Shown one piece after another: positions 58,056-60,654 of a stretch of DNA of 64,000 bases (the stretch's first letter is position 1; the number at the start of each line of letters is the position of its first letter). This stretch comes from Microcystis elabens FACHB-917 (lineage in GTDB: Bacteria > Cyanobacteriota > Cyanobacteriia > PCC-6307 > Cyanobiaceae): the NCBI RefSeq assembly GCF_014698445.1, contig NZ_JACJSZ010000013.1, positions 1 to 64,000 of the forward strand, written 5' to 3'. Position numbers and translations under genes: made by a program. The notes under the pieces are model-generated. The model was not told where the DNA came from, made no database searches, and saw nothing but the letters and a program-made list of their open reading frames with translations.

Positions 58056-58108
<53 letters not shown>

Positions 58109-58127
<19 letters not shown>

Positions 58128-59368
58128 TTTTCCTCCAACCTCCCTCCCCCCGCCGGGTGAACCACCCGCTGGGGAAAGGGGATCTCGATGCCATAGGCCT
58201 CGAAGGCTTTCCAGACCGCATCGGACAGTTCCGAGGAGATGCCGAGATTCTCCAGGGGATCGGCAATCCCGTAGCGCACCACGTAGTTGATGCCGGAATC
58301 GCCGTAGCTGATCAAGTAGGCCCTTGGCGCCGGCTCCCTCAGCACCCGAGGCATGGAACGAGCGGTGGCCTCCAGCAGGGCGATCACCTCGCTGGGGACG
58401 TGCCGGTAGGCGGCGGACACAGCCACCTGCCCGCGGCGCATGCGATCGGTGCCGGTATAGGTGGTGGTCTGATTGGTGAAGAACACCTGGTTGGGTATCA
58501 CCAGTTCGGCATTGTCGCGCTGGCGCCACAGCGTGGCGGCCCTCAATCCCATGCGGCGCACCATGCAGGGATCGCCATCGATGAAGAGCACATCTCCGGG
58601 CCGGACGGAGCCCTCGAACAGAAGCCAGACGCCGCTGACGAAATTGGAGAACACCTCCTTGATCCCGAATCCCAGCCCCACCGACAGCCCCCCCACCAAT
58701 GCCGCCAGCGGGGTGCCGCTCAGCCCGAGGACGTTGAACAGCCACAGGAAGCCGAGGCCCACAATCAGGTAGCGGAGCAACAGGGCCAGCACCTGGAGGC
58801 TGCTGTCCGAGACGTCGAGGATCGTCTGCAGCAGCCCACGGATGAGGTTCACCAACAGGCCGCTGAGCACGACAAGGAAATAGGGAAAGAGCAGAACGAT
58901 CAACAGATCGTTGACGGTGTAGGTCCTGCCGAACAGCTCCAGCAGGCCGATGGCGCCCACCTCGTCGAGCGAATTGAGCCGATCGCCGAGAAACAACAGG
59001 ACCCCCACCAGAAAGGCCGGCTTCACCACCTGCAGGTAAAGCCGATCCGTGGGTCCCAGGCCCCACGTCCTGCTGAGCAGCAGCCTGAGCAGAATCAGCA
59101 CCCCCCAGAGGAGGTTGATCCAGGCCAGATCCCGCGCCAGTCCCATCGGCAGACCGAACGCTCCCAGCGCCCAGACGAGCAGGTAAAGCAGGCCGCAGAG
59201 GCCGGCGAAGCCCACCAGCCACCGCGAGCCGCACCGCCGCCGCATCCGGCGGCGCACCAGGAGCCCATAGCCGAGCATGAGCAGGACTACCGGCAACCAC
59301 TGGCCGATCACCTGGGGACGCAGCAGAAGGGCCACCCAGGCGGACAGGGCAAAGACGAGCTCACTCAT
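58109..59368 (-). CDS. MscS-family mechanosensitive ion channel
   Basis: A 419-residue inner-membrane channel. Six or more hydrophobic segments fill the first 215 residues, more than the three of E. coli MscS. The pore helix and hinge are GTPLAALVGGLSVGLGFGIKEVFSNFVSGVWLLFEGSV (about 214-251), followed by the beta domain RPGDVLFIDGDPCMVRRMGLRAATL, DNAELVIPNQVFF and a C-terminal alpha/beta domain. The start overlaps the stop of the solute-binding lipoprotein gene (ATGA). Its stop codon lies inside the antisense tRNA-Thr gene. Confidence 0.92.
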
Positions 59369-60654
59369 GGTGGCCCGCCGATCAGATAGGCCGGCAGCAC
59401 CCGGTCGGACCGCAGCTCACCGGCCATCAGCCGGGTCAGCTGGCCTTCCAGGCGAGCGGCGTTGGCGTCGACGGCGCCGGTGGCCGAAGGGAGCAACCTG
59501 CCGTGGGACAAGCTTTCGGCCAGAGCCCGGTACATCTGCGAACTCTTGGTGGGCAGCGGGACGTTGCGATTCACCGGAACCACCCCCGGCACCAGCAGCA
59601 TGAGCTGCTTCTGGCTCACGTCGTTCACCAGCAGCAGGGCAAATGCCCCGGCCAGGTTGCGCTGGGCCTCGGTGGAGTCAATCCCGAAACTCAAGACCAC
59701 CAGGCGGAGCAGGAAATCGGCGGGCTCACCAGGGAGGCCAGGCAGCGGGGCCACCCCCAGGGAGCGGCCCATCACCTTCTGGAGTTTGCCGATCGAGAGG
59801 CTGCTGCAACTGATCCAATCGACGTTGCCCTGGCTCAGCAGGCTTTCCAGGTCGCTGTTCGCGTCATGAAAGCTGACATTCTGAAGCAGGTTGGCTGCAC
59901 CCAGCCAGGCGATCCAGCGCTGGAGGGCCTCCCGATCGCCCAGCGGCAACGCGGCCGTTCCAGACTTCACCTCCAGCAGCCGTTCCAGGGGCCCGGAAGC
60001 GCCGAAGGCACTGCTGGTCCAGTAGAGATCCCGGATCTTCAGCGGCAGTCCCACCCGCAGCCCGGAGGCGGCTTTCGGCAACAATTCCTCCAGGCTGTCG
60101 GGCGAGACCTTGAGTCGCCGCCGATCAAAGCAGGCCAGCTGGGGCTCGGCGGTGACCGGGACCGCCTCCTGCCCTTGCGGGCTCTTGAACGCTTCGATGA
60201 ACCGCAGGTCGGGCAACTCGGAGCGGATAGCGGCAAGGTCGACGGGCTCACTCAGGCCCTCCGCGGCGATAGCGCGCGCCAGCGTCGATTCGCTGAGCAC
60301 CAGATCGGGTCCCAGGCCGAGGAGGGCGCGATCCCGCAGGACGGGCAGAAGGCGCTCTCTCGGCAGGAATCTGATGTGCACGCGGGCATCGGGGCGCAGC
60401 AAGCGAAAACGGTCGCTCACCCCCTCGATGATCCTCCGGTTGGCCTGGCGACTCAGGGCGGCGAGTCGCCGGTCACGCAGAACCTCATTCTCGATGTACA
60501 CCACCAGGGTGTGGTCGATGGGAAGGCTCAGGCCGCACCCGCCGCAGAGCAACACCAGGGTGAGGGGCAACAGCCGGCCGACCAAGCCCTTTGCCTTCTC
60601 GCATCGCCTGGGCTGCCAACGCTCCCTTCTCGACGCCAACCAGCAATGATGCAT
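59365..60654 (-). CDS. Extracellular solute-binding lipoprotein coupled to MscS
   Basis: A periplasmic type-1 solute-binding protein, 429 residues from ATG 60654. A signal segment LLPLTLVLLCGGC ends in a lipobox-like CGGC, slightly atypical at -3, suggesting membrane anchoring. VVYIENEVLRDRR, RFLPRERLLPVLRDRALLGLGPDLVLSESTLARA, EAVPVTAEPQLACFDRRRL and VAPLPGLPGEPADFLL fit the sugar-binding SBP fold. A TTG at 60585 would give a conventional short signal peptide. No ABC permease or ATPase is nearby; the only partner is the MscS gene, overlapped by four bases. Ligand unknown. Confidence 0.8.
   Translation of the reverse strand: MHHCWLASRRERWQPRRCEKAKGLVGRLLPLTLVLLCGGCGLSLPIDHTLVVYIENEVLRDRRLAALSRQANRRIIEGVSDRFRLLRPDARVHIRFLPRERLLPVLRDRALLGLGPDLVLSESTLARAIAAEGLSEPVDLAAIRSELPDLRFIEAFKSPQGQEAVPVTAEPQLACFDRRRLKVSPDSLEELLPKAASGLRVGLPLKIRDLYWTSSAFGASGPLERLLEVKSGTAALPLGDREALQRWIAWLGAANLLQNVSFHDANSDLESLLSQGNVDWISCSSLSIGKLQKVMGRSLGVAPLPGLPGEPADFLLRLVVLSFGIDSTEAQRNLAGAFALLLVNDVSQKQLMLLVPGVVPVNRNVPLPTKSSQMYRALAESLSHGRLLPSATGAVDANAARLEGQLTRLMAGELRSDRVLPAYLIGGPP

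Follow-up and report, generated by a model that had tools for sequence, protein, structure and literature searches.

A conserved gene pair encoding a probable solute-binding lipoprotein and an MscS-type channel in aquatic cyanobacteria

The 64-kb stretch of cyanobacterial DNA analysed here (the window) carries, on its minus strand, a gene for a solute-binding protein (SBP; 60654..59365) followed by a gene for an MscS-type mechanosensitive channel (59368..58109). The SBP, P0001, is 429 amino acids long when counted from the ATG at 60654, and its start codon is uncertain, since translation could also begin upstream, at ATG 60693, or within the frame, at TTG 60585. The channel, P0002, comprises 419 amino acids, in which an MscK-like core is preceded by roughly four additional membrane helices. 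The stop codon of the SBP gene and the start codon of the channel gene overlap in an ATGA (59365..59368, minus strand), an arrangement indicative of translational coupling. On one flank lie genes for tRNA-Tyr and tRNA-Thr and, beyond these, MiaE and 3-dehydroquinase II, while the other flank holds a divergently oriented Sap-like membrane protein and an aldehyde dehydrogenase; none of the genes flanking the pair encodes an ABC or TRAP component. The initial annotation described a lipoprotein gene and an MscS gene that share an ATGA and lack ABC or TRAP neighbours; this is borne out by both reading frames, by the overlap and by the unrelated flanks. The 3′ end of the channel gene, including its stop codon (58109-58127), lies inside the tRNA-Thr gene on the opposite strand (58056-58127). 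The host genome is 3.68 Mb in size and has 11 matches to the MscS beta-domain.

P0002 matches Pfam MS_channel_2nd and MS_channel_3rd, both above cut-off, and the MscS beta-domain and C-terminal domain (PF00924 and PF21082) are matched in 32 of 32 and 30 of 32 relatives, respectively. An MscS/MscK-type pore helix is present, with GGLSVGLGFGIKEVFSNF of P0002 aligned with LSVGLSFGLQEIFGNF of MscK. Among solved structures, the channel core comes closest to MscK (also known as KefA) and MscM of E. coli, both of which the C-terminal two-thirds resembles (profile match to MscK, 7uw5, E = 1.4e-46; to MscM, E ~1e-40), and the predicted structure (pLDDT 84.7, pTM 0.60) aligns with MscK and MscS chains at a VIA-align Z of ~15. 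In this model, a short N-terminal helix (residues 2-15) is followed by helices 18-43, 47-70, 76-102 and 104-131, a beta-hairpin at 141-151 (strands 141-145 and 148-151), and then the MscS-like helices 152-184, 188-214 and 218-252. The total of about seven membrane helices, compared with three in E. coli MscS, agrees with the extra N-terminal transmembrane segments that the initial annotation had noticed. Two segments are candidate docking elements: the N-terminal helix (residues 2-17; 59318..59365, minus strand) and the loop between helices 4 and 5 with its beta-hairpin (residues 132-151; 58916..58975, minus strand). Both would lie on the periplasmic face, because this is where they fall when the known MscS topology is counted back and the arginine-rich loop at 39-47 is taken into account; the placement thus rests on charge distribution and homology. 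Within the N-terminal half of the channel, the putatively periplasmic segments are more conserved (0.48-0.55) than the cytoplasmic loops (0.26-0.31), which fits a periplasmic partner without proving one, and R17, Q23 and P117 are 99-100% conserved among 136 sequences.

P0001 matches Pfam SBP_bac_8 at 34 bits (cut-off 27). Its predicted structure (pLDDT 90.7, pTM 0.88) aligns with UgpB (4mfi) at a VIA-align Z of 34.0 (rmsd 3.1, 351 residues aligned) and with maltose/maltodextrin-binding (MalE-type) chains at a Z of ~33, and across these UgpB/maltose-type neighbours a Z of ~33-34 over ~355 residues goes with 13-16% sequence identity. The protein is therefore predicted to keep the full two-lobe MBP/UgpB-type fold, the same fold and Pfam family as in the MBP/UgpB-type SBPs of ABC importers, and the ligands of its fold neighbours include sugars, glycerol-3-phosphate, glycerophosphocholine and dinucleotides. 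Three residues set the channel-paired SBPs apart (positions in alignment A1 plus 38 give P0001 numbering): Cys175 (C137 in A1; 60130..60132), Trp212 (W174 in A1; 60019..60021) and Cys283 (C245 in A1; 59806..59808), all on the minus strand, are each invariant across all 138 paired SBPs, and none of the 8 unpaired homologues has them at these positions. Besides an N-terminal cysteine, usually that of a lipobox, the mature domain has no cysteines but the equivalents of Cys175 and Cys283 in any of the 135 pairs, and because exactly two invariant domain cysteines are available, they likely form a disulfide. The probable lipid-modified residue of P0001 is Cys40 (60535..60537, minus strand), which sits in an atypical lipobox, L-C-G-G-C40; a relaxed pattern finds a lipobox in 118 of the 135 paired SBPs. 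In the next class, of 13 SBPs, some have a cysteine near the end of a hydrophobic segment and others only the hydrophobic segment, and since the latter have a hydrophobic N-terminal segment without the cysteine, this suggests an inner-membrane tether, which would place the SBP next to the channel. Conservation is lower in the N-lobe (0.38) than in the C-lobe (0.49), so that one ligand shared by all pairs is not indicated; this would allow ligands to differ between pairs, or no ligand at all.

Whether the two genes stay together in relatives had been set beforehand as the check on the proposed pairing, and the adjacency proved to be conserved. Among 151 genomes of the window's family, SBP relatives give 74 matches in 61 genomes, and in 72 of these 74 the next gene downstream, in the same orientation, encodes a P0002-subfamily channel. 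Both unpaired SBPs are truncated by contig ends, one of them still showing the channel up to its residue 46. Conversely, the only unpaired close relatives of P0002 among the channels listed are two fragments and one distant paralogue. In the phylum search, strong SBP matches from other cyanobacterial families (E < 1e-45) are paired in 12 of 12 loci fetched, while the weak matches (E 1e-9 to 1e-31; 8 fetched) are all unpaired. A scan of named genomes using the channel alignment as query led to 80 loci being fetched, including those of Synechococcus WH7803 and WH5701, Vulcanococcus limneticus, Cyanobium and Aphanothece; 79 contain the SBP, and the remaining one starts at a contig end. A four-nucleotide NTGA overlap joins the genes in 97 of 135 distinct pairs, the widest gap being 181 nt. 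A chance association is excluded, because the adjacency is conserved and the pair is present at more than one chromosomal site. A tblastn search of plasmids with the SBP gave no match, and channel relatives are absent from viral contigs.

The pair also behaves as a unit when it is copied or lost. The window's genome has a second SBP-MscS pair, on contig C56, which adjoins a gene for a small acidic protein, with the window's pair at a separate, tRNA-flanked site; two pairs are carried by several genomes. At three loci (L076, L082 and L083), two pairs stand close by in tandem, with clearly diverged copies. One genome with an intact pair elsewhere carries fragments of the SBP and then of the channel, in order (L226, 4542-5463), and with remnants of both genes side by side, the two evidently decay together. 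In another (L225, 4657-7089), a frameshifted SBP gene, which is either a pseudogene or a sequencing error, stands beside an apparently intact MscS gene, and so the channel may sometimes persist alone. A mirror-tree comparison of SBP and channel gives r = 0.90, a value that partly reflects common descent, against at most 0.15 for shuffled partners. When species history is removed, paralogue partners in two-pair genomes are concordant in only 13 cases, against 4 discordant ones. The claim already made in the initial annotation, that the SBP and the MscS channel form a dedicated functional pair, is strongly supported: adjacency and overlap are conserved, the genes duplicate and decay jointly, and the paired SBPs form a clade that has invariant residues of its own.

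We also considered a third partner. A first clustering of neighbouring genes suggested none, and a cleaner count then found the acidic protein gene near the pair in 74 loci (e.g., L069, L073 and L156), always on the same strand and at varying distances. The copy beside the C56 pair (120671-120922) encodes ~84 amino acids beginning MALDLNDPELEF, and the two reading frames that hold the protein have no Pfam match. The gene is single-copy and near-universal in the family (85 of 101 genomes), including genomes without the pair. The acidic protein was accordingly rejected as a third partner: being present where the pair is absent, its gene marks a site and does not encode a subunit.

That the SBP and the channel act together is well supported, and for how they do so a ligand-gated or ligand-tuned release valve would be the most economical mechanism. 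We propose, with confidence divided about equally for and against, that the SBP, tethered to the membrane, serves as a regulatory subunit by which MscS gating is tuned, the two proteins making up a two-component regulated mechanosensitive channel. Membrane tension would open the channel; the lipoprotein would remain anchored in the inner membrane and dock on the periplasmic face of the channel; and either the closing and opening of its lobes around a periplasmic solute, or docking alone, would shift the tension threshold of its partner. Judged from the fold alone, the ligand may be a sugar, glycoside or glycerophosphodiester, for example a compatible solute. A more specific version, which we hold somewhat less firmly and tentatively, is that the SBP is an exchangeable, separately encoded ligand-sensing subunit, so that the channel would act as a coincidence detector of tension and periplasmic solute, and duplicated pairs would sense different solutes.

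The regulated-channel reading draws on analogy with two known systems. Tension and external K+ are both required for MscK to gate (PMC9653487), and in Synechocystis, GluR0 fuses a binding-protein-type domain to a K+ channel and has been linked with cell volume during KCl upshock (PMC13099474). In MscK, a single chain combines 11 helices with an N-terminal periplasmic domain of ~500 residues, whereas in the pair the periplasmic part is a protein apart, the MBP-type lipoprotein, and P0002, with its 419 amino acids and ~7 helices, has no such domain. Like GluR0, the pair combines a periplasmic binding-protein-type domain with a channel in a cyanobacterium, and here the control of the one by the other is presumed. 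However, GluR0 is a single fused protein with a glutamate-binding domain and a K+ pore, while here two genes encode an MBP-type SBP and an MscS pore. In the Ger germinant receptors, too, one subunit is a lipoprotein. These receptors of Bacillus spores are described as ligand-gated ion channels with at least three subunits (PMC13170314), yet their proteins and fold are unrelated to those of the SBP-MscS pair and their physiology is different.

Several other explanations could account for a conserved pair. In the first, which we consider rather unlikely, the SBP has lost the ability to bind small ligands and acts as an auxiliary subunit, structural or redox in role, that sets the tension range of the channel or links it to the envelope. 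The two mature-domain cysteines, both invariant, and the C-lobe, which is more conserved than the N-lobe, would then serve stability or docking, but a complete two-lobe MBP fold, as predicted for P0001, would be costly for a purely structural role.

A second explanation, which we regard as improbable, is salvage, in which the SBP would retrieve an osmolyte lost through MscS on down-shock and pass it to an ABC permease encoded elsewhere. The fold of P0001 is near that of the carbohydrate and glycerophosphodiester SBPs of ABC systems, and the window's genome encodes several ABC permeases; it also has four SBP_bac_8 matches, one with two permease genes just downstream. However, none of the genome's ABC-type SBPs is detectably close to P0001, the best BLAST match being at chance level (E = 4.5), and so the clustering with an ABC system elsewhere in the genome that would have spoken against a dedicated pair was looked for and not seen. 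The closest relatives outside the pairs tell the same way. The nearest unpaired homologues belong mostly to other classes of the phylum, and the five closest of the eight (L130-L134) have ABC permease genes nearby; by contrast, no permease or ATPase gene is near the window's pair, and the cysteine pair and the tryptophan carried by the paired SBPs are missing from the unpaired, ABC-linked homologues found. The pair-linked SBP clade is distinct from ABC-linked SBPs. P0001 thus does not classify as the SBP of an ABC importer, having no ABC genes beside it and no detectable closeness to the ABC-type SBPs of its genome. A channel subunit would also account better than a salvage protein for the strict 1:1 coupling and for the existence of separate paralogous pairs.

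The initial annotation had also raised a low-affinity uptake channel, for which nothing specific speaks. Passage of solutes through the MscS pore with the help of the SBP, as low-affinity uptake or as export, would agree with the gene arrangement alone, but MscS-type pores are wide and weakly selective, and the conserved pore and vestibule regions of this channel look ordinary, which makes the idea very improbable. Least probable of all, and disfavoured, is co-inheritance without a functional link, through shared regulation or neutral synteny. The commonest site of the pair is indeed a conserved chromosomal neighbourhood, that of the acidic protein gene, but pairs at other sites, including the window's, retain the arrangement, remnants of both genes are found together, and four-nucleotide overlaps are common.

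For the regulated channel, then, what is already known is the kind of each component and, from MscK, gating by force plus ligand; what is new, as far as we found, is the arrangement of a separately encoded SBP with an MscS channel. Solute-binding proteins serve importers, chemoreceptors and kinases, and, if the proposal is true, a mechanosensitive channel joins the list of their partners and provides a system in which gating by force plus ligand could be studied with genetically separable parts. We found no description of the SBP-MscS pairing in the open-access literature. Two surveys of picocyanobacteria describe many MscS genes with a habitat-uneven distribution, and make no mention of SBP partners in the relevant passages (PMC9361551, PMC7522525). 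The proposal would assign a role to many genes that have so far been annotated separately as SBP and MscS. The pair is found in aquatic cyanobacteria that are themselves widespread (Synechococcus, Cyanobium and Vulcanococcus), whose niche is shaped by osmotic response. It also occurs in contigs from metagenome-assembled genomes named Bifidobacterium breve and Rhodopirellula (L192 and L210); these contigs are probably mis-binned, as the pair is otherwise seen only in cyanobacteria.
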